Assembly (NCBI RefSeq): GCF_000058485.1
Contig: NC_008278.1
Span: forward strand, 6,070,962-6,134,961
From: Frankia alni ACN14a
GTDB taxonomy: Bacteria; Actinomycetota; Actinomycetes; Frankiales; Frankiaceae
DNA length: 64,000 bases
Reading direction: 5' to 3'
Position numbers and translations under genes: made by a program. The notes below the pieces were generated by a model. It was given only the letters and a program-made list of their open reading frames with translations, did no database searches and was not told where the DNA came from. Shown here piece by piece: positions 6,410-36,485 of this stretch. The first letter of the stretch is position 1; every line of letters starts with the position of its first letter.

Positions 6410-7539
6410 GACGGACGGATCCGCAGCGGCGCGGCGGGGACCGCCTCGAGGCCGCCGGGCAGGGTTGCCTCCCCGTCCCAGGCGTCCGCCATGACCGCGC
6501 GCAACCGGCCCGCGGCGTCCTCGGGGGTGAGGTCGCGCGCGGGCTCCGCGAGCATCTCGTAGCCGACGAGGTGCTTGCGGATCGTCGGCGAGCGCAGCAG
6601 CGGCGGGTAGAAGTGGGCGTGCAGCTGCCAGACCCCCTCGGCGGGACGCCGCGAACCGGTCGGCCGGCTCGTGGCCCCCGCCGGGTGCGGACCAGGGGCG
6701 CCGTGCCAGCCCATCGAGAACGGGAACGGGTGGTCGAACAGGGCGTCGTAGCCGGCGAGCAGGCGGCCCAGCACGTCGGCCAGGCTGTCCCGCTGGGCGC
6801 GGTCGAGGTCGGCGAGCCGCTGGACGGGTCGGCGGGGCAGCAGCAGCGTCTCGAAGGGCCACACCGCCCAGAACGGCACGACGACGAGCCAGTCGGAGTC
6901 GTCGAGAACGATCCGCTCCGCGGCGCGTGTCTCGGTGCGCAGGTAGTCGAGCAGCAGCGAGCTGCCCGACCGGGCGAAGTGCTCCCGCTGGTGGGTGTCC
7001 TCGGCGGCGGCCTCGTCGGGCAGGGCGTCGCAGGCCCAGATCTGCCCGTGGGGATGGGGGTTGGAGGCGCCCATCGCGGTGCCGCGGTTCTCGAAGACCT
7101 GCACCCAGCGCCACCGCTCGGACAGCTCGGCCTCCTGCGCCGCCCACGTGTCGACGACCGCGCGGACCTCGTAGGAGGACATGTCGACCAGCCCACGGCC
7201 GTGGTGCGGGCCGAAGCAGACGACCCGGCAGGTCCCGTGCGCGGGGGCGCTGCGCAGCAGTCCGCCCGGGTCGGCGCCGGGCGGCGCGGGATCGCTCTCG
7301 GCGGGTCGCAGCGCCGGGAAGTCGTTGGTGAACACGTACGTGCCCCGGTAGTCGGGATTGCGAGCGCCGCCCGCACGCTCGTTGCCGGGGCACAGGTGGC
7401 AGGCGGGATCGTACGCGACGGCGGGAGGCGTCGCCGCCGTCTCCCGGCCGCCGTGCCAGGGGCGCCGAACCCGCCCCGGCGAGACCAGGACCCAGCGGCC
7501 GGTCAGGGGATTGAACCGCCGATGCGTGGTGTCGTCCAT
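6406..7539 (-). CDS. galT: Galactose-1-phosphate uridylyltransferase
   Basis: Exchanges UMP between UDP-glucose and galactose-1-phosphate; first gene of a galT-galK pair. 377 residues from ATG 7539, where the protein begins MDDTTHRRFNPLTGRWVLVS, the usual GalT N-terminus; the frame is open further upstream but that sequence is not GalT-like. Visible motifs: zinc-site CHLCPGNERAGG, the substrate segment ENRGTAMGASN, and the catalytic HPH triad in NPHPHGQIWA, which carries the uridylylated histidine. No galE lies next to the pair; the epimerase at 52-53 kb belongs to a surface-polysaccharide block. Ends in a 4-bp overlap with galK. Confidence 0.95.
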
Positions 7540-7890
7540 CGATTCGACAGCCTGCCACGGCCCCGGCCGGACCGGCCCCGTCCGGACCACCCCGGAAGAT
7601 CCACCGGCGGCCGAGGCGACAGGCCACCCGGACCGCCCGGTTACCTGACGCAACGCACTGACGACTCTAGGGTCAGGGGGTGGCACCGCCGCGGCGCGGT
7701 CGCGACAACCCGCACGTGCGGCGATCCGGACGGGCGACGGCCGGGCAGGGGCCGGGGCCGTCGGCGCGTCGCGGCCCCCCGACGCATGCAACGCGCATCA
7801 CACGGCGGATCGGACAGGCGGCAGCGGTCAACCGCCGGCAGTCGGCAGTCGGAGGCCGGCGGCCGACCGGCTCGGAAGGGACGGCAGGGC
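7540..7890 (+). promoter_or_regulatory. Divergent intergenic region galT / PhoX-like gene with candidate promoter at 7645-7673
   Basis: 351 bp between two divergent starts. On the plus strand CTGACG (7645-7650), a 17-bp spacer and TAGGGT (7668-7673) form a reasonable vegetative promoter with a start point near 7680, giving the PhoX-like gene a leader of about 210 nt. A GTG begins exactly at 7680, but the frame behind it has only Arg/Gly-rich shadow text. No clear galT promoter or operator was recognised. Confidence 0.35.
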
Positions 7891-25933: not shown

Positions 25934-26203
25934 GTTTGTCCTCCTCCGGCGCCGGTCCCATCGACGCCGCAGGGAACGCTGTCAGCCGAACATGGCCGGA
26001 GATCGACACGGACGGAAACATCAGTGCACGTACAACCGACCGAGACCCTCGCCCACCGTCACCGAGATGGCCAGCCGCCCCGGCCCGCCGACCAGCCCCG
26101 ATGGCGGGCGGGGCCATCGGGGTAGACGGGCTCCGCTCGACCGAACCGACCCGCCACCCGAGCACGGCCCCTCCAGCTCGGCCGCCCACGCCGCCACCAC
26201 CAG

Positions 26204-26733
26204 ACACGCGACGCCGACACCAGCGCCGAGGCCACCGGCCTCACCCTGCTTGCCTTCCCGGTCGCCATGGGCATCGCGGGGCCGATCGGTGGGCGCCTGG
26301 CCGACCGGGCCGGCTCCCGGCCAGTCGCAGTTGCGGGCGCCGCGCTGACCACCGTCGGGCTGGTGCTCCTGGCACCCCTCGGCACCGCATGGTCACCGGC
26401 CGAGGTGGCCGTCCGGCTCGCACTCGCCGGTACCGGCATGGGTCTGTACGGCGGCCGGCGCAGACGCTGGTGATGACCGCCGCGCCACCGGACCGGATCG
26501 CCACCGCGGGATCGATCGTCCAGCTCGCCCGCAGCCTCGGCTTCGCCATGGGCCCGGCGGTGGCCACTGCCGCCTGGGCGCTGGGTGGCAGAGCTGAGGC
26601 CGGCACCCGGATCGGGCTCGGCATCGCCGCGCTGGCCGCCTTCGCAGCCGTGCTGCTGCTTGCCCGCCCACGCCCGGCTGCGCCGCTGGTGCCGTCCGAG
26701 CCGCCCGTTCCCGCCGGCCCACCGATCGGCTGA
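26204..26733 (+). pseudogene. MFS transporter remnant, frameshifted and lacking its N-terminal half
   Basis: The frame around 26204-26455 reads TLLAFPVAMGIAGPIGGRLAD followed by the R-A-G-S-R-P loop, the typical start of the second six-helix half of a drug-efflux MFS protein (G-x-L-A-D-R motif between helices). After GMGLYGG near 26453 the reading moves to another phase and continues as QTLVMTAAPPDRIATAGSIV and SLGFAMGPAVATAAWALGG up to TGA 26731-26733, which is the expected remainder of the same protein. One missing base in the GGC-GGC-CGG stretch explains the shift. No start codon or N-terminal helices exist upstream. The remnant immediately precedes asnB and may be a lost exporter of the same cluster. 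Confidence 0.8.
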
Positions 26734-26823
26734 CCCGAGGCCCTGCTTCGGCCAGCCCTGCCACGTGCAATCCGACGAGGCCGCATTCGCCCCGCCGGCC
26801 CCGCAGAGAACAGGAGGCCCGAC

Positions 26824-28665
26824 ATGTGCGGCATCACCGGGTGGGTGTCGTTCGGCCAGGACGACTACGAACAGAAGACGGTCATCGAGGCGATGACGGC
26901 CACGCTGCGGCGGCGTGGGCCCGATGCGGGCGGCACCTGGGTCGGCGCCCACGCCGCGATCGGTCACCGCCGCCTCGCCGTCATCGATCTTGTGGGCGGC
27001 GTCCAGCCCATGGTCAGCGACCAGGACGGAGCCGAGACCGTCCTGACCTACAGCGGCGAGATCTACAACCATCACGAGCTGCGGGGCGAGCTCGTCCGGC
27101 GCGGCCACACCCTGCGCACCCGCAGCGACACCGAGGTGGTTCTGCACGCCTACCTGGAGTGGGGCGACCTTCTCGTTGATCGCCTGGAGGGGATGTACGC
27201 GTTCGCGGTGTGGGACGAGCGGGCGGGGCGCCTGCTGCTCGTCCGCGACCGACTGGGGGTGAAGCCCCTGTTCTATGCCGAGATCCCCGGCGGCGTCGTC
27301 TTCGGATCCGAACCGAAGGCGCTGTTCTGTCATCCGCTGGTGCGCCCCCGGGTCAACGCCGACGGACTGCGGGAGGCCTACAGCCTGTTGTTCAACACCG
27401 GACCGACGGTGTGGACGGGGGTTCGGGAGCTGGCGCCCGGTGCCCTGGCCACGTTCGGCCCGCACGGCCTGACCGAACGGACCTACTGGGCACTGGATGC
27501 CGCTGCGATGGCTGCCGTCTCACCCCAGGCGGCCGTCGAGCAGGTACGCGTCCATCTGGAGCGCGCCACCGCCGCCCAGCTTGAGGCGGATGTCCCACTC
27601 TGCAGCCTGCTGTCCGGCGGGTTGGACTCCACCGTTCTCACCGCGCTGCTCGCCGACGAGCTGCGCCGCCGCGAAGGGCCGCACGCCCGCATCCGTTCCT
27701 TCGCCGTCGACTACAGCGACCAGGCCGTCCAGTTCACCGGCGACGTCCTGCGGACCGGCCACGACGCCCCGTACGCCGTGGAAGCGAGCCGGTACATCGG
27801 CACCGACCACAGCACCGTCGTGCTCGACCCCCACACACTGCTCGACCCCGAGCACCGGCTGGCCGTCGTCGCCGCCCGTGACTCACCGATCGGGGTCGGC
27901 GACATGGACACCTCGCTCTACGTGCTGTTCGGGAAGATCGCCCAATCCTCGACGGTGGCCCTGTCGGGCGAAGCCGCAGACGAGGTCTTCGGTGGCTACC
28001 CGTGGTTCCACTCGCCCGCGGCGCTGTCGGCACCGACCTTTCCCTGGCTGCTGGTGACCGGCGACGAAGCGGCGATGCCGCTGCATCCAGATCTGGCGGC
28101 CACCCTGCGAATCGAGGAGTTCCGGGCGGACACCTACCGCGACGCTCTCGCCGCTGTGCCACACCTCGACGGCGAGGACCCGACCGAACACCGTCAGCGC
28201 GAGATGGCCCACCTGTCACTGACTCGCTGGCTTCGTCAGCTCCTGCACCGCAAGGACCGGCTCAGCATGGCCCAGGGCATCGAGGTGCGCGTGCCGTACT
28301 GCGACCACCGACTCGTCGAGTATGCCTTCGGCGTCCCCTGGGCGGTCAGAAGTTTCGACGGCAGGGAGAAAAGCCTCCTGCGTGCGGCCGGCGCCGGCCG
28401 CTGCCCCGAGTCGGTCCTGATCCGGGAGAAGAACCACTACCCGACCACCCACCACCCCGACTACAACCGTGGGCTGCAGGCGATGGCCCTGGATGCCCTG
28501 GACGCCCACGGCGGCCGGGTGCGTGACCTGGCCGACGTGAGTCGCCTCCGACCGCTGATCGACGGGCCGCCCGAGCGGCTGGAGTGGGGTCAGCGGCTGA
28601 GCCTCGAACGCGTTGTCGACCTCGCCCTATGGCTCGACCACCACCACCCGGAACTCACCCTCTGA
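26824..28665 (+). CDS. asnB: Asparagine synthetase B-type (glutamine-hydrolysing) amidotransferase
   Basis: 613 residues from ATG 26824 (AGGAGG six bases upstream). The mature N-terminus begins with the catalytic nucleophile (MCGITGWVSF, Cys2), with RRRGPDAGGTWV, IGHRRLAVIDL and SGEIYNHHELR marking the glutaminase domain. The synthetase domain has the PP-loop SGGLDSTV near residue 263 and SGEAADEVFGGYPWF, both typical of AsnB. Full length and apparently active: ATP + aspartate (or another carboxylate) + glutamine give the amide. Sixty-six bases downstream lies the P450/isocyanide-synthase chimera with its own AGGAGG, so they are probably co-transcribed. In secondary-metabolite clusters AsnB homologues amidate carboxyl groups of products, so the substrate may not be aspartate. 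A housekeeping role cannot be excluded. Confidence 0.92.
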   Translation: MCGITGWVSFGQDDYEQKTVIEAMTATLRRRGPDAGGTWVGAHAAIGHRRLAVIDLVGGVQPMVSDQDGAETVLTYSGEIYNHHELRGELVRRGHTLRTRSDTEVVLHAYLEWGDLLVDRLEGMYAFAVWDERAGRLLLVRDRLGVKPLFYAEIPGGVVFGSEPKALFCHPLVRPRVNADGLREAYSLLFNTGPTVWTGVRELAPGALATFGPHGLTERTYWALDAAAMAAVSPQAAVEQVRVHLERATAAQLEADVPLCSLLSGGLDSTVLTALLADELRRREGPHARIRSFAVDYSDQAVQFTGDVLRTGHDAPYAVEASRYIGTDHSTVVLDPHTLLDPEHRLAVVAARDSPIGVGDMDTSLYVLFGKIAQSSTVALSGEAADEVFGGYPWFHSPAALSAPTFPWLLVTGDEAAMPLHPDLAATLRIEEFRADTYRDALAAVPHLDGEDPTEHRQREMAHLSLTRWLRQLLHRKDRLSMAQGIEVRVPYCDHRLVEYAFGVPWAVRSFDGREKSLLRAAGAGRCPESVLIREKNHYPTTHHPDYNRGLQAMALDALDAHGGRVRDLADVSRLRPLIDGPPERLEWGQRLSLERVVDLALWLDHHHPELTL

Positions 28666-28731
28666 CACCCGGCGGACTCACCGCCGTCGAACCACTCCGT
28701 GACCATCCGGACCGCATCCCAGGAGGTCCCC

Positions 28732-29490
28732 ATGTCACCGACCGATCCGATCCCCCTGTACGGGCCCCAGTACAAGCGCGATCCCTACCCCCTCTATCGG
28801 CGACTGCGCGCCACCGGACCCGTTCATCGGGTCCGCTTTCCCAGCGGCGTGATCGGCTGGCTGGTCACCGGCTACCGGGCAGCCCACGAAGCGCTGAACG
28901 ACCACCGGCTCGGCAAGAATCACGCACTGGGTACCTCCGATGCGCTGAGCGCCCTGATCGACGAGGAGGGACTCCGTCACCTCGACCTGTTCAGCCTGCG
29001 CGACATCCTCGGGGACCTTCCCTACGACGACAAGCGGTCGTCGGTCAGCAGGCGTTATGGACCGACCTCCGAGCAGCTGCGGGCCGAGGTGCGATCCGAT
29101 GAGGACACCCGCCGCCTGTACCAGGGCATAACCCGATTTCTGGTCGAGGACACCGCCGAGTTTGTGGGCAGCCGGTCGGCACTGCAGCGTGAGTGCCGCC
29201 AGCGGGCCTATGGCGTCATCGGCCGCAGTCGAGCCTGGGGGCGGCTGGTCGCCGAGCACCATCCGCGGGCGGTGCGTCTGTCGATCCATCCCCAGCGCCG
29301 CGGCACGTCCAAGTTCGGCATCCGCCTGTTGGAAAGCTCCGACGCCTGGATGACACCGTGGCACGCCACAGTTCTGCGCCGGGCGGACGGCGCCTCGGAA
29401 CTGATGCGACGCGCGGACGCGCAGCGGCTCGGCCGGTTGGTGACGCGCGACGGCCGGCCGAGCCATTTCCAGGCCCACGCTGCGGTCTGA
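28732..29490 (+). CDS. Chimera: cytochrome P450 N-terminus joined to the C-terminal part of a Dit1/PvcA isocyanide synthase
   Basis: 252 residues from ATG 28732 (AGGAGG five bases upstream). Residues ~1-90 match the N-terminus of actinobacterial P450s: YKRDPYPLYRRLRATGPVHR, then the strand GWLVTGYRAAHEALNDHRLG. The P450 I-helix, ExxR and haem-Cys loop are all absent. From about residue 95 the protein changes to the isocyanide-synthase (DIT1_PvcA) family: DLFSLRDILGDLPYDDKRSS, RRLYQGITRFLVEDTAEF, RAVRLSIHPQRRGTSKFGI and AWMTPWHATVL. The last two are the most conserved blocks of that family. The first ~110 residues of an isocyanide synthase (with the SDGRVF-type segment) are missing. The frame is continuous, so a deletion most likely fused two neighbouring genes. 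Whether the chimera has any activity is doubtful. It lies between asnB and a metal-chelate uptake operon. Confidence 0.75.
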   Translation: MSPTDPIPLYGPQYKRDPYPLYRRLRATGPVHRVRFPSGVIGWLVTGYRAAHEALNDHRLGKNHALGTSDALSALIDEEGLRHLDLFSLRDILGDLPYDDKRSSVSRRYGPTSEQLRAEVRSDEDTRRLYQGITRFLVEDTAEFVGSRSALQRECRQRAYGVIGRSRAWGRLVAEHHPRAVRLSIHPQRRGTSKFGIRLLESSDAWMTPWHATVLRRADGASELMRRADAQRLGRLVTRDGRPSHFQAHAAV

Positions 29491-29516
29491 CCACGCCGTC
29501 GGGACACCCTGCGGCT

Positions 29517-30425
29517 TCAGCACGGATTCCGTTTCTCCTCGCTCTCCCGCCCGGCCTCCTCCCGCCCGGCCGCCCGCCCGGCCTCGGTCGGGACCGAGCC
29601 GGCGGCCGGCGCTGGGCGGCGGCCATGGCAGCTCCACAGGCAGGGGCGCTGTGGGCAGACGCAGCGTGGTCGCCCGATCAGGCGTGGGCGACCGGTGAAC
29701 GGGTCCGCGAGCAGGAATCCGTCGATGTCGAAGACGTCGCGGAGGACCTCGGCGCCGAGTACGACGGCCGGCGGCCCGGCGGCGACGACCCGGCCGGCAC
29801 GTAGCGCCACAAGCGTGTCCGCGTAGGCGGCGGCCAGGTCGAGAGAATGCAGGGCAGCCAGAACGGTCAGATTCAGGCTGCGTACCAGCTCCAGAACATC
29901 AAGCTGGTGGAACGGATCCAGGTGATTCGTCGGCTCGTCCAACACGAGCAGCCGCGGCTGCTGGGCGAGCGCCCGAGCGAGCAGAACCCGTTGCCGCTCC
30001 CCGCCGGACAGCGTCGAAAGCCGGCGATCGGCGAACGGGCCGCAGCCGGTTCGGTCGAGCGCCTGGTCCACCACGGTCCAGTCGGATTCCTGCAACCGGT
30101 CGAACATCCCCAGGTACGGCGTACGCCCCAGGCCGACGGACTCCCGCGCGGTGAAGTCGAACCCGCCGTGCTGATCCTGGGCGAGAACCCCGACGGCCCG
30201 GGCGACCTGTCGAGCCGGCGCCCGCCACAGGTCGTCCGGGCCGAGCAGGATCGACCCCGCACGAGGCCGCAGCGCCCGGTACACGGTCTTGAGCATCGTC
30301 GACTTACCGCTCCCGTTGGGACCGACGAGAGCGACGAACGCACCGGCCTCGACAGTGAGGTCGATGCCGTTGACCGCGGGCACAGAGGTCCATCCGGCGG
30401 TCACTCCAGCGATGGACAACCTCAC
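29517..30425 (-). CDS. FecE/FepC-type iron-chelate ABC transporter ATPase with Cys-rich tail
   Basis: 302 residues from GTG 30425, which overlaps the permease stop (GTGA). ATPase motifs: Walker A VGPNGSGKSTMLK (~34-46), Q-loop in GVLAQDQHGGFDF, signature STLSGGERQRVLLARAL, Walker B LLVLDEPTNHLDP, switch His AALHSLD. This is the ferric-siderophore/cobalamin/haem importer class, which energises uptake with the FecCD permease. FecE-type proteins usually stop near residue 255-265. Here about 40 residues follow, beginning RPRCVCPQRPCLWSCHG (four Cys in 13 positions), which could bind a metal or be a fortuitous extension. The gene ends 26 bp from the convergent chimera gene. Confidence 0.9.
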   Translation of the reverse strand: MRLSIAGVTAGWTSVPAVNGIDLTVEAGAFVALVGPNGSGKSTMLKTVYRALRPRAGSILLGPDDLWRAPARQVARAVGVLAQDQHGGFDFTARESVGLGRTPYLGMFDRLQESDWTVVDQALDRTGCGPFADRRLSTLSGGERQRVLLARALAQQPRLLVLDEPTNHLDPFHQLDVLELVRSLNLTVLAALHSLDLAAAYADTLVALRAGRVVAAGPPAVVLGAEVLRDVFDIDGFLLADPFTGRPRLIGRPRCVCPQRPCLWSCHGRRPAPAAGSVPTEAGRAAGREEAGRESEEKRNPC

Positions 30426-31531
30426 AGCACACCCGCCGATCCGATCGCACCACGGCGTAGCGTGATCACGAACAGGGGCACCCCGATCGCCGCGGTCAGG
30501 ATGCCGACCGGCAGCTCCGTCGGCGCGAGGACGAGGCGGGCCGCCGTATCCGCCCAGACCAGGACGATGGCACCGAGCAGCGCGGCGACGGGAAGTACCC
30601 GCCGATGGTCCGCGCCCACGAGCAGCCGGGTCAGGTTCGGGATCACCATGCCGACGAAGCCGATGGCTCCCGACATCGCGACCGCCGTGCCGGTCAGCAG
30701 GGCGACGAGTACGAGCAGGAACCCTCGAGATCGGCTCGCGTCCACGCCGAGCGCGGCGGCTGCCTCATCCCCGAGTACGAGGACGTTGAGCCGGCCACCG
30801 AGGGGCAGCAGCAGGGTGGCGAGCGCACCGACGACCAGCACGACGGTCACGGTCAGGTCCCAGCGCGCCCCGGAGAAACTGCCCAGCAGCCAGAACAGGA
30901 CTTGCGCCTGGGCGTCCGCGTTGCGGGTACGTAGCAGCAGAAAGGAGGTGACGCCGTCCAGCAGCTGCGCGGCGGCCACACCGACCAGTACCAGGCGGGC
31001 CGGTGCCAACACCCCGCCGGTGCGGGCCACCAGGAACACCGCGGCCCCCGCCAGCAGCGCCCCGCCGAACGCCGCGAGTGGCAGCGTCATCGTTCCGAGA
31101 GTCACTGCGCTCAGCACGGTCAGGGCGAACACCGCCGCGGCACTCGCTCCCGAGGACAGCCCGAGGATGAACGGGTCTGCCACCGGATTGCGCACCAGCG
31201 CCTGCGTGACTGTTCCGGCCAGCGCAAGACCCGCACCGACGGCTGCTGCCGTGAGCACCCGGGGGGCCCGCAGCTGCCAGACGATGATGTCCGTCGGCCC
31301 CGTGATGTGACCCGAGCCGAAAACGTGCGCCCGCAGTATCCCCACGACCTCGCCGACCGGCACCGCGACCGGGCCGAGTCCGACGGACATGACGACCGAC
31401 ACCGCCAGGGTGCCAGCCAGAACGGTGATCACGACGGCGGTCGGGACGGCTGCCGCCAAACCGCCGTTCCGTGACCCGTGCGGCGTCGTCGCGGTGGTTC
31501 GGGTGGCGCCGGGCGCGGCGGTGACGGTCAC
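30422..31531 (-). CDS. FecCD-family iron-chelate/cobalamin ABC transporter permease
   Basis: 369 residues from GTG 31531, overlapping the stop of the binding-protein gene (GTGA). It has about ten hydrophobic segments. Family motifs include IIVWQLRAPRVLTAAAVGAGLALAG, LVRNPVADPFILGLSSGASA, VLVLGDEAAAALGVDASRSR (the cytoplasmic loop contacting the ATPase) and GAIGFVGMVIPNLTRLLVG followed by DHRRVLPVAALLGA, then LPVGILTAAIGVPLFVITL. Works as a homodimer in the membrane with the downstream ATPase. The three genes are translationally coupled, indicating one operon: membrane protein (33.7 kb), binding protein, permease, ATPase. Confidence 0.93.
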   Translation of the reverse strand: MTVTAAPGATRTTATTPHGSRNGGLAAAVPTAVVITVLAGTLAVSVVMSVGLGPVAVPVGEVVGILRAHVFGSGHITGPTDIIVWQLRAPRVLTAAAVGAGLALAGTVTQALVRNPVADPFILGLSSGASAAAVFALTVLSAVTLGTMTLPLAAFGGALLAGAAVFLVARTGGVLAPARLVLVGVAAAQLLDGVTSFLLLRTRNADAQAQVLFWLLGSFSGARWDLTVTVVLVVGALATLLLPLGGRLNVLVLGDEAAAALGVDASRSRGFLLVLVALLTGTAVAMSGAIGFVGMVIPNLTRLLVGADHRRVLPVAALLGAIVLVWADTAARLVLAPTELPVGILTAAIGVPLFVITLRRGAIGSAGVL

Positions 31532-32793
31532 CGGGCCGACCGATGCAGGGCCGCGCCGACCATGGTGACGGCCTGCCCGTTCAGGGGGCTCGGGGACAGG
31601 AAGACCGTGTTGGAAACGGTGACGATCCGCCGCTCGCGGACCGCGGTGATCCGGGCTAGCTGGGGGCTGGCCAGGATGGCGCTGACCAGGTCGGCGGCCT
31701 TCGCGGACCCGGCGAAGGTGATGGCGACGATGGCTTCCGGGTCGCGGGCGACGACCTCTTCGAGGTTCACGTTGGCGCTGTCACCGGGGAGATCGGCGAA
31801 GATGTTCGCCCCACCGGCCTGGGAGACGATGCCGTTGGCCAGGCCACCGCCGCCAATCGTGCCGATCGACTGCCCCGCCGCCGGCGCCGCGGACAGCACG
31901 AGTGTGCGAACGGGGGGCCTTCCTTCGAACAGAGCACGGGCCGGGGCGATCTCCGCCCCCAGCTGGGTGATCAGCGCCTCGCCTCGCTGCTCCACACCGA
32001 AAGCACGGGCCGTGTCCCGGATGAACTGCCACGTCGGGGCCAGGTCTCGCACCCGCGTCCCGGTTGGTGCGGCGCAGGCGACGACGACCGGGATACCGGC
32101 AACGGACAGGTCCCGGGCGGTCGGTGTGCCGGGAAACCCGCCCAGTTCCAGGGTGGAGGTGCCCAGAACGAGGTCGGGTCGTTCGGCGATCACCTGCTCC
32201 CGGTTGGGCAACCGGTCGGACAGCAGCGGAATCCTGTTCAGCCGGGTCCGGTCACCGGTCGGGTACGCGGCGAAGAAGTCGTTGCCCGCCGTGGCGACCA
32301 CCCGGTCGAGAAGGCCGAGTCGCAGCAGCAATCCGGCGGCGCCGCCGTCCAGGGTGACCACCCGGCGCGGCGTGCTCGGCGGTCTCACGGGAGTGGGGCA
32401 GTCCGCCGAACCACTGGCCGCGGATCCGTGGCCGCCGCCTGCGTTCCTGTCCCCCGACAGGCCACCGCCCGGGCTGGCCGCCGCAGGGGCACCGGCGGAA
32501 GCGTCGTGTGCCACGGCAGACGAGTCGGCGCAGCCCGCCGCGGAGCAGGCTACGAGCGCGATCGACGCCGCAAGCACCCGGGATCCTCGGCGCCCGAGCC
32601 GCGATCGGTGAGAGCGGACGGGTCCCTGCCTCCCGCCGTGTCCGGACCGAATCACGCGGTCGGCGCCGAGCTGACGGGTAGCTGCCCGCGGGCGGCTCGA
32701 ATCCGGGGCCCCTTGGCTCGGTGCGGGCGGGGAAGAACTCGCGGAAGGCGAAAGATCCTCACCAGGCGAGAAGATGTATTTGCAGTGCGTCAC
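31528..32793 (-). CDS. Iron-chelate-type ABC transporter substrate-binding lipoprotein (FecB/FepB class)
   Basis: The mature domain is a class III binding fold: TPRRVVTLDGGAAGLLLRLG, NRIPLLSDRLPNREQVIAE, RPDLVLG, and the C-terminal ADLVSAILASPQLARITAVRE. A lipobox SAAGC follows RVLAASIALVACSAAGC, so it is membrane-anchored. The start is uncertain. GTG 32793 has a good ribosome site (GGGAG six bases upstream) but places about 85 polar residues before the signal. GTG 32655 gives a normal signal peptide (375 residues in total) but has no visible ribosome site. Ligand class (ferric siderophore, cobalamin, haem or other chelate) is not determinable. Next to an isocyanide-synthase relic, a metal-isonitrile complex is an attractive but unproven option. 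Confidence 0.85.
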   Translation of the reverse strand: MTHCKYIFSPGEDLSPSASSSPPAPSQGAPDSSRPRAATRQLGADRVIRSGHGGRQGPVRSHRSRLGRRGSRVLAASIALVACSAAGCADSSAVAHDASAGAPAAASPGGGLSGDRNAGGGHGSAASGSADCPTPVRPPSTPRRVVTLDGGAAGLLLRLGLLDRVVATAGNDFFAAYPTGDRTRLNRIPLLSDRLPNREQVIAERPDLVLGTSTLELGGFPGTPTARDLSVAGIPVVVACAAPTGTRVRDLAPTWQFIRDTARAFGVEQRGEALITQLGAEIAPARALFEGRPPVRTLVLSAAPAAGQSIGTIGGGGLANGIVSQAGGANIFADLPGDSANVNLEEVVARDPEAIVAITFAGSAKAADLVSAILASPQLARITAVRERRIVTVSNTVFLSPSPLNGQAVTMVGAALHRSAR

Positions 32794-33106
32794 AACAGTC
32801 TCCCTTGGCTGGGCAGACGTGAGCACGGCCATGGGTCGACCCCACCGGGGCCGCCCACGGCTCGCAGACGGGGTTCGGCTACCTGCGGGCACGAGGAGAT
32901 ACCCAACCGGTGAGTACGGCCTTCCAGAGGCCGAACGCGTGCCGCTCAGGCGCCAGCGGCGTGAAGCGGCGAGCAACGCCCATCCATCTCGACGGAGCGC
33001 GCAGGACGCCGGGGCACAGCCCGGCCGATCCGTCAGCGTCCCCGCGGTCGCCCGTCCGCTCGAGGCAGTGTCGGCAGTAGGCCGTGGGACAGGCCTCGGC
33101 AGCCGG
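32794..33106. other. Intergenic region, no gene recognised
   Basis: 313 bp between the small membrane protein gene and the binding-protein start, both on the minus strand. A short hairpin (CGGCCTC/GAAGGCCG type, near 32920-32940) is visible. I searched by eye for a cobalamin riboswitch (B12 box) in this upstream region and found no convincing match. Confidence 0.4.
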
Positions 33107-33727
33107 TCAGGTTGTGCCGGGAACCGGCGGCCCTCGGCGGATGACGACATGGCGGAGCAGCACAAGGCGGCGAACCGGTCGGTTGGTTGCCGGCTTCCAC
33201 GCTGCGCGGCCCGGCCTGGGCCGGCGTGTTCCATTCGGGCGTCGGCGCAGCCGCCTGACCACTCGCCGGGCCACCCGGACGACGCCGCTGGTCACCCGCC
33301 ACAGGGCATGTTCCCCGATGGCGAGCCACCAGGTGAGCAGGAGGGCCGCGCCGAGGTGGGCTGCGGCCATCGCCGGTCCTCCGGGCAGCAGGTTCACGCC
33401 GGAATGCCCGACCGTCCCGCCGGGTCCGACCTCGCCGGCGAGCCCCCCGCTCCGGCTCGCGCCGTGGGTGGGCATGGCCAGGGTGAACGCGACATGCAGC
33501 CCCACCTGAACGGAGAGCATGAGCCCGGCGAGGCGTCGCCGGCACATCGGCCGGTCGGCGACGCCCCAGCAGATCCGCGCGGCCAGCGCCGCGCCTACCC
33601 CCAGAACCGGCAGCGAAGGCGGCCGAGCACAGGTTGTGAGGTGAGCGGCCGTCGCCAGTCCGACGGCCACGCCGGCCACGGTCGCGGTGCGCACCGCACG
33701 CCCGACTCGTGTCGCGGCCCAGATCAC
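33107..33727 (-). CDS. Small polytopic membrane protein, first gene of the FecBCD-type operon
   Basis: 206 residues from GTG 33727. Four hydrophobic segments are apparent: TATVAGVAVGLATAAHL, SLPVLGVGAALAARICW, LAGLMLSVQVGLHVAFTLAM and AAAHLGAALLLTWWLAIG. His and Met residues lie in or near the helices (AAHL, LHVAF, AMPTHG, MAAAHLG), followed by a basic C-terminal tail (RRVVRRLRRRP). Similar four-helix His-containing proteins occur near copper and iron handling genes in actinobacteria, but I do not recognise a named family. Same strand as, and 313 bp upstream of, the binding-protein gene, so co-transcription is plausible. Confidence 0.65.
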   Translation of the reverse strand: MIWAATRVGRAVRTATVAGVAVGLATAAHLTTCARPPSLPVLGVGAALAARICWGVADRPMCRRRLAGLMLSVQVGLHVAFTLAMPTHGASRSGGLAGEVGPGGTVGHSGVNLLPGGPAMAAAHLGAALLLTWWLAIGEHALWRVTSGVVRVARRVVRRLRRRPNGTRRPRPGRAAWKPATNRPVRRLVLLRHVVIRRGPPVPGTT

Positions 33728-33818
33728 AGTCCCAGCATCCTAGCTCTTCGCGGACAGAGTCCTTACTTTCCGCAACGCTCCACGCTTATGCGTGACCGAA
33801 CATGTGCTGCCTGCGGTT

Positions 33819-33847
33819 ATTCTACGAGATGTAGAGGTGAGGTTCCA
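33819..33847 (-). promoter_or_regulatory. Candidate promoter with overlapping inverted repeat upstream of the uptake operon
   Basis: Read on the minus strand, TGGAAC (33847-33842), a 17-bp spacer and TAGAAT (33824-33819) form a good vegetative promoter starting near 33812, about 85 nt before the membrane-protein GTG at 33727. An inverted repeat TCTAC-N5-GTAGA (33821-33835) overlaps the -10 box and is a candidate operator. It does not match DtxR/IdeR or Fur boxes that I know. The rest of 33728-34136 (409 bp) shows no gene and is AT-richer than its surroundings. Confidence 0.4.
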
Positions 33848-34136
33848 TCTTCTGATGCGGTTCGCAGCCACCACAGTCCGTACGGGTGGTCGTACGTGAC
33901 GCCTGCCCGGTGCCTTCCTGGGGCGAACATCCGCAATCATCGAAACGTCGTTCGGCATCGGGCACCGTAGAGCACACCGATCGCCACGGCCGGAGAAAAT
34001 CTGAGCCCCTGATGTGACGGCTGCGAGACGGGCAACCCAATCCACGAGCAGCGAGGGCCGTGGTCCGTGGGTTTCGGAGGGCCGCCCCACGGACGGCTCC
34101 CGGCACGGCGGGTCGTACCCGCCGTGCCGGGCCCGG

Positions 34137-36485
34137 TCAGCCGACGCCGACGGTGTCGTAGTCGGCGATGCGCAGGGACATCGTCTCGGCGAGGCGGGCC
34201 ATGGCGCCGTCGATGAGCTTGAGGTCGCGGATGGCGAGCTGGCCGTCGTGGACGGTGCCGGCCTGCTCCTCGCTGCGACGTTCGGCCCGGTCGAGCAGCG
34301 CCGACGAGCGGGTGTAGGTCGCGTCGCGCGGGCCGTTGAGCGCGGCGGCGATGACGTCCAGCGACTCGTGCAGGGTCGCGGTCGCCCCCTTGATCTCCCG
34401 TCGGCTGCCGAGGTCGAGCGGGCCGGCCCTGTCGACGTCGTGGACGAGGTTGCGGCTGTAGCTGCGCGACGCGGTGGCCAGGCGCATGACCTCCCCGATG
34501 CCCTCGTCGATGCCGCCGACCGCATTGCGGCGCAGGGGCTGGGCGGTCGCGACCAGGCCCTGGTAGGCGGCGTCGACGGCGCGGGCGTCGGCCCGCAGGG
34601 CGGTGTCGCCGCCGACCGGGTCGCCGAGCAGGCGGGCGCTGGCGTGCTCGACGAGGTCCGCCACCGCCTGCACGTACGCCCGCAGGGCAACCCGCAGCAC
34701 TCGGCGCGTACGCAGCGGGAACACCACCATCACGACCACGATGGCGACCCCGGCGCCCAGGGCGGTCTCCTCCAGCCGCAGGCGCAGCAGCGAGTTGGAG
34801 AACTCGTCGAGCTGGACGTAGAGCTGGGAGACCATCACGGTGATCCCGACGACCATGAAGGCGTAGTTGATCCGCATCAGGTAGAAGCCGAGGAACAGCG
34901 ACACGAAGATGACCGTGAGCGACAGCGCGGTGTCGTGGCCGACCGCGTGCGCGAGCACCGAGCCGATCAGGATGCCGACCAGCGTGCCGATCACCCGGGA
35001 CAGCGCCTTGCGCACCTGCTCGCCGGAGTTGTTCGCCCCCATGAAGGTGATGAACGCGGCGATCACCGCCCAGTAGAACCGCCGGCCCGACAACAGGTCG
35101 CCGAGCGCGATCGCCGCCGCGACCGCGACGCCCATCTGGATGGCCGCCCGAACGTGCGGTGCGAGCCGGATGCTGCCACCGGGACGCTCGCCCCGTTCCA
35201 GCGAGGCCACGGCGCTGGGCACCGCGGACCCCGGCAGCCAGCCGCCGAACAGCATCACCGACGGCTGGAACGCGGCCGCGCCGTCCTCGGCCTTCGCCGA
35301 GCCCAGGGCGAGCCACTGGACCATCGCCTCGGTCAGCGCGAGCACCGATCCGGCGAAGCGGTGCACGACGACGACCGCGGTGCGGTCCCGGCTGCCGGCG
35401 AGGGGATCGGGGTCGTGGTCGACCGCCCGCAGCAGCTCGATCAGCGCACGGGCGTGAGCGTTGGCCGCCTCGGCGTCGCGGTCGAGGATCCCGTTCAGGG
35501 CGCCGCGGACCTCGGCGAGCTGGTCGGCGGGCAGGCCGAGGCGGGCCATGGCCTGGGCGAACCGGGCGACGTTGGTCAGGGCCAGCTCGACGTCGAACAG
35601 GCGCTGGTGCAGCAGCTGGCCCGACGAGCCGTCCGCCACCGCGGCGGGATCGCCGAGCTGGGCGTCGATCATCAGGGCGGCCTCGTTGAGCCGGACGAGC
35701 TGACGCTGCAGGCGCTGCTCCTGGCGTTCGCCGTGCTCCGGGTCCTCGAACAGCTCCAGGGCCAGCTTCGCCACCTTGCGGGCGCGGGCGGCGTAGGAAC
35801 GCTGGGTCCGCTGCAGGGCCTTCGCGGGATGCGGGTAGAACAGCACGAAGCGGACGATGATCGCCACCGCCAGCCCCACCCCGAGCTCGGCGCACAGCCA
35901 GCCGAGGTCACCCAGCGACACGCCTGCCCCGAGGAAGAACCCCAGGAAGACGCCCATGAACAGCAGCATGCCGCCGATGAAGCCGCGCAGGCCGAAACGC
36001 CGGCAGTAGGTGCCGACCGCCAGGCTGAGGGCGAGGACGATCAGCGAGATCGTCCGGTGATCGGCGAGGCTGATGCCGAGCACGAGCATCGGGACCAGGG
36101 GGACCGGCAGCAGGAGCATCGTCACGAGCTGGCCCCGCGCGGTCGCGTCCATCACCCCGAAGACCGAGATCAGCCCGATCAGCGCGCCCATCATCATGGC
36201 GATGACCTGGTACTGGTGGTTGGCCGCCGCCACCGCGGCCGCCTTCGCCGCCGGCAGGTGCGCGCCGTGGGTGTCGATCTGCAGCGCGTGGGTGGCCCGG
36301 ACGAACAGCCACTCGACGAGCAGGATCGCGCCGATCGTGATGACGCAGTGCAGCGCCATCCGGAACCGGTTCAGGCCGGGGTCCGAGCCGAGGAAACGGT
36401 CGACCCAGCGGGTACGGAGCTGCTCGGCCGGTCGGGCCGGCGGGCTGGCGGTGGCGACGTCGAGCCGGACCTCACCGATGCTCAA
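34137..36485 (-). CDS. FUSC-family membrane protein (aromatic-acid-exporter-like)
   Basis: 782 residues from TTG 36485, chosen because GGAGGG stands five bases upstream; upstream frame text is not conserved-looking. The architecture is two membrane modules, each of about six helices: residues ~40-200 (GLNRFRMALHCVITIGAILLVEWLF, QYQVIAMMMGALIGLISVFG) and ~420-580 (RAAIQMGVAVAAAIALGDLL, SGRRFYWAVIAAFITFMGAN, VIGTLVGILIGSVLAHAVG). The block F-Y-W-A-V-I-A-A-F is the FUSC signature. A large helical cytoplasmic domain lies between the modules and another at the C-terminus. Family members are linked to export of aromatic acids or to envelope stress; the substrate here is unknown. Convergent neighbours are absent and it appears monocistronic. 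Confidence 0.85.
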   Translation of the reverse strand: MSIGEVRLDVATASPPARPAEQLRTRWVDRFLGSDPGLNRFRMALHCVITIGAILLVEWLFVRATHALQIDTHGAHLPAAKAAAVAAANHQYQVIAMMMGALIGLISVFGVMDATARGQLVTMLLLPVPLVPMLVLGISLADHRTISLIVLALSLAVGTYCRRFGLRGFIGGMLLFMGVFLGFFLGAGVSLGDLGWLCAELGVGLAVAIIVRFVLFYPHPAKALQRTQRSYAARARKVAKLALELFEDPEHGERQEQRLQRQLVRLNEAALMIDAQLGDPAAVADGSSGQLLHQRLFDVELALTNVARFAQAMARLGLPADQLAEVRGALNGILDRDAEAANAHARALIELLRAVDHDPDPLAGSRDRTAVVVVHRFAGSVLALTEAMVQWLALGSAKAEDGAAAFQPSVMLFGGWLPGSAVPSAVASLERGERPGGSIRLAPHVRAAIQMGVAVAAAIALGDLLSGRRFYWAVIAAFITFMGANNSGEQVRKALSRVIGTLVGILIGSVLAHAVGHDTALSLTVIFVSLFLGFYLMRINYAFMVVGITVMVSQLYVQLDEFSNSLLRLRLEETALGAGVAIVVVMVVFPLRTRRVLRVALRAYVQAVADLVEHASARLLGDPVGGDTALRADARAVDAAYQGLVATAQPLRRNAVGGIDEGIGEVMRLATASRSYSRNLVHDVDRAGPLDLGSRREIKGATATLHESLDVIAAALNGPRDATYTRSSALLDRAERRSEEQAGTVHDGQLAIRDLKLIDGAMARLAETMSLRIADYDTVGVG

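Follow-up and report, generated by a model that had tools for sequence, protein, structure and literature searches.

The window analysed here, a 64,000-nucleotide stretch of Frankia alni ACN14a DNA, contains at positions 28732-29490 of the forward strand a single open frame of 252 codons that runs from an ATG at 28732 to a stop codon ending at 29490. A ribosome-binding site, AGGAGG, is read from the sequence at 28721-28726 on the same strand, 5 nt 5' of this ATG, and all of these assignments agree with the initial annotation of the locus; a GTG at 28699 is a possible upstream start that would add 11 residues. The promoter scan returned no promoter-like site, and both terminator-like sites found fall inside the upstream asnB gene. 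Our analyses confirm that the frame joins the start of a P450 to the C-terminal part of an isocyanide (isonitrile) synthase (ICS). It is composed of (i) a P450-derived part encoding residues 1-67 (28732-28931, + strand), delimited by similarity to P450 starts and by the end of DNA homology at 28931, (ii) a junction of three bases (28932-28934, + strand) that match neither parent in the alignments, as given by the blastn ends and starts with loci L005 and L007, and (iii) an ICS-derived part encoding residues 68-252 and the stop codon (28935-29490, + strand), delimited by its PF05141 match and its identity to the ICSs of relatives.

PF05141 describes the DIT1_PvcA isocyanide synthases, which use ribulose-5-phosphate to convert tyrosine or tryptophan to an isonitrile. 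Fusion residues 70-232 align with positions 86-267 of the 273 positions of this profile in a Pfam search (E 8.3e-35; 121 bits vs. a curated cut-off of 26.4), i.e. there is a significant match to the family that the initial annotation had named, and PF05141 is the sole Pfam family in the protein at E up to 1. Residues 71-246 align, below cut-off, with positions 132-313 of 315 of the NCBIfam L-tyrosine isonitrile synthase model; the score of the fusion for TyIsonSynPvcA is 139.5 of 600 bits, and the intact ICS of L005, which matches PvcA over residues 32-329 (5.3e-83), is also under this cut-off at 274.4 bits. Among PDB sequences, residues 1-72 match bacterial P450s (PikC, E 4.1e-12). Compared with L005, the P450 part has 75% identity to the start of the P450 over 65 residues and the ICS part 67% identity to the ICS. 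The claim of two unrelated halves in one frame was upheld: residues 1-67 reach 109 bits in the best BLAST match to the P450s of 11 relatives and residues 68-252 reach 263 bits against the ICS set, far above the maxima of 24.6 and 30.0 bits, respectively, in 100 shuffles each, ruling out chance resemblance of either half.

The fusion gene lies within what appears to be a larger cassette. Directly upstream and co-directional is an intact asnB-like amidotransferase gene (26824-28665, + strand; PF00733, 5.2e-81), the product of which carries MCG at the N-terminus and the SGGLDS motif and is without internal stop. Farther upstream lies the remnant of an MFS exporter gene (26198-26673, + strand), identified by similarity to relatives in two frames, with a frameshift near 26455 and only the C-terminal part present; it has 63-71% identity to the MFS proteins of five relatives from residue ~282 on, and the N-terminal half was not found upstream of the remnant. 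Elsewhere in the genome, MFS genes have 24-38% identity to the exporter of the cassette. Convergent to the fusion gene and 26 bp away are three intact genes for an importer: an ABC ATPase (29517-30425, - strand; PF00005, 1.1e-32) with Walker A, Walker B and signature motifs, a FecCD-type permease (30422-31531, - strand; PF01032, 3.9e-84) and an ORF (31528-33234, - strand) with a C-terminal substrate-binding domain (Peripla_BP_2, 1.4e-23, at residues 292-540). The latter has a lipobox-like AAGC, and its true start is probably inside the annotated frame. The permease is the best match of the genome to the permease of a Kitasatospora cassette (49% vs. 40% for the next), and the ATPase is 46-55% identical to the importer ATPases at the cassettes of relatives. 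Overall, the importer has 45-55% identity to its counterparts in relatives, well under the 71-75% of the asnB-like protein, and in the rows listed none of the NCBIfam names that it attracted (F420-0, B12 and iron siderophore types) reaches its cut-off.

Both parents of the fusion are found as separate genes in relatives. Scanning of genome contigs gave four loci, i.e. L005-L007 from Kitasatospora or Streptomyces and L008 from Protofrankia coriariae, a member of the Frankiaceae. L005-L007 each have two separate ORFs on one strand that match the fusion: a P450 ORF, the start of which aligns with fusion residues beginning at 2-6 and ending at 70-89, and, downstream of it, an ICS ORF that aligns with residues beginning at 59-63 and ending at 239-249 (the ICS of L007 runs into a stretch of Ns at its end so that its C-terminus is not visible). 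With the fusion protein as query, a search of 393 actinobacterial genomes added eight further P450 and ICS loci among the matches listed (L049-L056). In all 11 relatives with both genes on the same contig, these are separate, adjacent and co-directional, 8-177 bp apart with gene starts picked mechanically, as anticipated by the initial annotation, in which a deletion between neighbouring P450 and ICS genes was proposed. No second P450-ICS fusion, and hence no relative with the same fused N-terminus, was present among the matches listed for the 393 genomes. PF05141 was detected in 16 of these genomes, and only F. alni ACN14a has kept the C-terminal part without profile positions 1-85; in another actinobacterial genome (G263:C181:26688-27041) the match is confined to profile positions 1-118, the opposite truncation.

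The surroundings of the parents are shared as well. An asnB-like gene with 71-75% identity to that of F. alni lies directly upstream of the P450 gene in six of the 11 relatives (L007, L049, L051, L053, L054 and L056), with the same co-directional asnB-P450-ICS order as in the window; a Fec-type importer is present within the examined DNA of all 11. Seven have a close MFS gene (64% or more) there; L007 has just 76 bases 5' of asnB, in which an MFS gene could not show. At the remaining five loci (L050, L052, L055, L005 and L006) the examined DNA has no asnB-like gene, and there may therefore be two cassette types, with and without asnB, that make different end products (amide and acid). The cassette of P. 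coriariae (L060:2899-7637 and L058:466-1463) also looks damaged, possibly because of draft errors: on L060 the MFS gene is N-truncated, asnB and P450 have frame changes, asnB continues in frame into P450 near L060:5307-5321 and a DDE transposase gene (6480-7637) directly follows P450; the ICS gene is on the separate contig with an internal gap and Ns.

To map the join, blastn was run with six loci. P450 homology stops at 28931 in L005 and L007 and 6-7 bases earlier in L049 and L054, and ICS homology begins at 28935 in all four. The homologies to the two parents thus meet within 3 nt, placing the join at codons 67/68, 28 residues earlier than the join at residues 95/96 in the initial annotation, which has to be corrected in this respect. 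The split search proposed there gave a Pfam match for one of the two segments: residues 96-252 match PF05141 (2.6e-34), and residues 1-95 had no hit at E up to 1, probably owing to the shortness of the P450 part and to the 28 ICS residues in this segment. Between the two join points, the 11 relatives have 1407-1694 bp of DNA, from which we estimate that ~1.4-1.7 kb (about 1.5 kb) would have been deleted.

What the fusion has lost is considerable. On the P450 side about 338-371 residues are gone including the loop that carries the haem ligand, for which the pattern is FGxGxHxCxG. This pattern is found in the P450s of 10 of the 11 relatives (the loop of L051 has one changed residue) and is absent from all six frames of window positions 28601-29600, in line with the predicted loss of the haem site; since a P450 without the cysteine loop cannot bind haem, the fusion product cannot be a P450. 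On the ICS side, residues 1-149 of 335 (L005 numbering), or about 45% of the protein, are missing. The likewise predicted loss of the synthase N-terminus is evident from the start of the match at PF05141 position 86 and from the 78 residues shared without change by 11 intact ICSs (those of the cassettes except L007, omitted for its Ns, 10 in all, and the more distant L059): 36 are lost, 40 are kept and two are changed, one of them at the join, i.e. 40 of the 42 invariant positions within the retained part are kept. The N-terminal blocks PGFPCKSPN, LPD-GE and CSDGHVFGD are among what is missing. So large and conserved a part is absent that the product is very likely not an isocyanide synthase. 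No further PF05141 gene exists in the genome, and none of its remaining P450s is more than 38% identical to that of the cassette. With no haem site, 36 of the 78 invariant ICS residues lost and no other PF05141 gene, the strain has almost surely lost isonitrile synthesis by the ICS route.

The cassette lies in an 8.0-kb island (26100-34134), which was delimited by blastn with five sister genomes of the genus (six loci) and is absent from all five. In the sister-species locus L064 the island flanks are 92-96% identical and 282 bp apart; L062, L063 and L067 have other DNA at this site, L065 has lost the greater part of the right-hand gene and in L066 the contig ends. The site is flanked by a PhoX-like and a FUSC-family gene, and its content varies among the sister genomes, from nearly empty (L064) to a GmrSD-type restriction gene with an AAA protein (L062) or, by our own reading, other transport-like genes (L063). 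Repeats at the island edges are limited to a 22-bp inverted repeat (86%) at 34092-34138 that overlaps the right edge, with none on the left. Within the 13 genomes of the genus, a PF05141 search of 35 genomes gave matches only in ACN14a and G002, and the ICS of G002 (L059:9048-10016) is full-length and of a different subfamily (37-41% identity). DNA searches of the same 13 genomes for a second copy of asnB plus fusion returned short or weak matches only.

The retained ICS part evolves no faster than the intact asnB gene, and there is no clear relaxation. In leave-one-out comparisons at otherwise invariant columns, with L059 and Protofrankia left out, Frankia differs at 3/67 and the intact L054 at 7/71 columns of the ICS part, and at 28/391 and 33/396, respectively, for asnB; in the P450 part Frankia differs at 2/37, the highest among 12 rows. 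Ratios of the Frankia branch to the rest of the tree, on a fixed topology of the seven taxa with asnB, are 0.18 for the ICS part (30 bootstraps: mean 0.18, sd 0.05), 0.30 for asnB (bootstrap mean 0.28, sd 0.04) and 0.45 for the P450 part, a value from 66 columns only and without bootstrap that, taken alone, would suggest faster change. Three-taxon estimates of dN/dS on the Frankia branch are 0.19-0.29 for the ICS part and 0.22-0.24 for asnB, and are rough given that the branch dS is 0.43-0.61 and L054 is in every one of the five trios. Pairwise dN/dS of the P450 part is 0.19-0.37 for Frankia vs. the 11 relatives and 0.25-0.75 for other pairs. These rate tests fit either a recent deletion or a product that is still constrained; because the branch tested includes time before the deletion, the codon tests give no date for it.

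Combining the separate, adjacent parents in 11 relatives with DNA homologies that meet within 3 nt, we regard an origin of the fusion by deletion as strongly supported. We suggest, with a probability of about 0.88, that a ~1.5-kb deletion in an asnB-P450-ICS cassette made the fusion in the Frankia lineage and that the cassette no longer makes its product. In this model, (i) the deletion would have run from near the start of the P450 gene through the spacer and past the first ~149 codons of the ICS gene, (ii) the remaining P450 start and ICS end would have been joined in frame by chance, (iii) the fused gene, which kept the start codon and ribosome site of the P450 gene, is for that reason probably still translated and (iv) with the exporter also broken, synthesis of the product would have ceased. 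In our view the cassette is decaying and the fusion is a pseudogene-like remnant, retained function having a small probability. What counts against decay is that the retained ICS part is without signs of it and that asnB and the importer are intact, observations that would fit a recent deletion or a useful product.

Alternatively, the fusion could be a new working protein in which the P450 N-terminus aids expression and folding and the ICS part has a non-catalytic role, either in binding of tyrosine or an isonitrile or in a complex. The initial annotation had left room for a product with a new role, and the intact frame, the good ribosome site, the lack of accelerated evolution and the high conservation of the retained ICS part speak for it. 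However, the branch tested says nothing on constraint after the deletion, about 45% of the ICS and nearly half of its invariant residues are gone, no second such protein is among the matches listed for the 393 genomes, and the cassette also has a broken exporter, which makes a new role less likely than decay; we consider this alternative improbable. The more specific scenario in which the translated stub is maintained for binding or regulation, beside the intact importer, in a strain that receives the isonitrile-copper complexes of neighbouring actinobacteria would likewise be a long shot. An assembly or cloning error, by which DNA between P450 and ICS genes that are separate in the real genome would be missing from the sequence, is very improbable: the species is represented by one genome only, and the several lesions in the draft Protofrankia cassette may be such errors, but the ACN14a genome is a single contig of 7,497,934 bases and 99.87% complete, the frame continues cleanly across the join, where there is no N, and the exporter lesion would need a separate explanation. 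Finally, a distinct ICS family in which the P450-like N-terminus is a normal part has virtually no probability left and is ruled out by the two-gene arrangement in the 11 closest relatives and by the lack of a second fusion among the matches listed; moreover, the ICS architectures listed in PMC5974471 are single-domain, ICS-dioxygenase (ICS-DOX) and ICS-NRPS.

The locus represents a biosynthetic cassette caught mid-decay for which both parents of the fusion are known from relatives and the join is fixed within 3 nt, and it cautions that a PF05141 match at this locus does not imply an isonitrile producer. The relatives seem equipped to make a copper-binding compound, and production in ACN14a has most likely ended. 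Siderophore 'cheaters' keep uptake while lacking synthesis, and the locus raises the question whether synthesis and export of a copper chelator were similarly lost and uptake kept. The importer would be weak proof of cheating because its identity to the importers of relatives is so far under that of asnB.

The combination of asnB, P450, ICS and a metal-chelate type importer is presumably that of the cassette for the copper-binding chalkophore hazimycin, reportedly the subject of a 2024 article by Matsuda et al. in J. Antibiot. By analogy, the amidotransferase, P450, ICS and importer together would fit a tyrosine-derived isonitrile amide (dimer) of the hazimycin type that binds copper. Compared with the presumed make-up of this cassette, the window has the amidotransferase-P450-ICS order and is missing intact P450, ICS and exporter genes. 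Among the open-licence PubMed Central papers listed, we recognised none on the P450-ICS fusion locus.

The closest parallels to the locus are the actinobacterial asnB-P450-ICS cassettes (Kitasatospora, Streptomyces and genomes of two families), which have the same order, 71-75% identity in asnB and 62-69% in the ICS part, a Fec-type importer alongside as in the window and, in some cases, an MFS gene upstream of asnB. They differ in that the P450 and ICS genes are fused in F. alni, the exporter gene is truncated and frameshifted and the importer is only 45-55% identical. Isonitrile synthases of the PvcA/IsnA type (PF05141; PDB 3e59 and 9dhm) have the N-terminal ~149 residues, with their highly conserved blocks, that the fusion lacks. 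ICS-DOX and ICS-NRPS proteins resemble the fusion in that an ICS piece is joined to a piece of another enzyme; as described in PMC5974471, however, these consist of whole domains and are recurrent, whereas the fusion consists of two fragments, has a P450 partner, was found once and has no dioxygenase or NRPS domain by Pfam at E up to 1. The initial annotation had reasoned from known isonitrile clusters with an ICS beside a P450 (as DIT1/DIT2) or an oxygenase; an ICS beside a P450 is borne out, and the source is corrected here to an actinobacterial cassette with asnB and a metal-chelate type importer. According to PMC5974471, the ICS gene also lies near a P450 gene in yeast DIT1/DIT2 and fungal XanB/XanG, and the co-regulated P450 is proposed to dimerise the tyrosine-derived ICS product; in these systems, the two genes are separate and intact, and DIT1 and DIT2 are divergently transcribed, unlike the co-directional parts of the fusion in the window.
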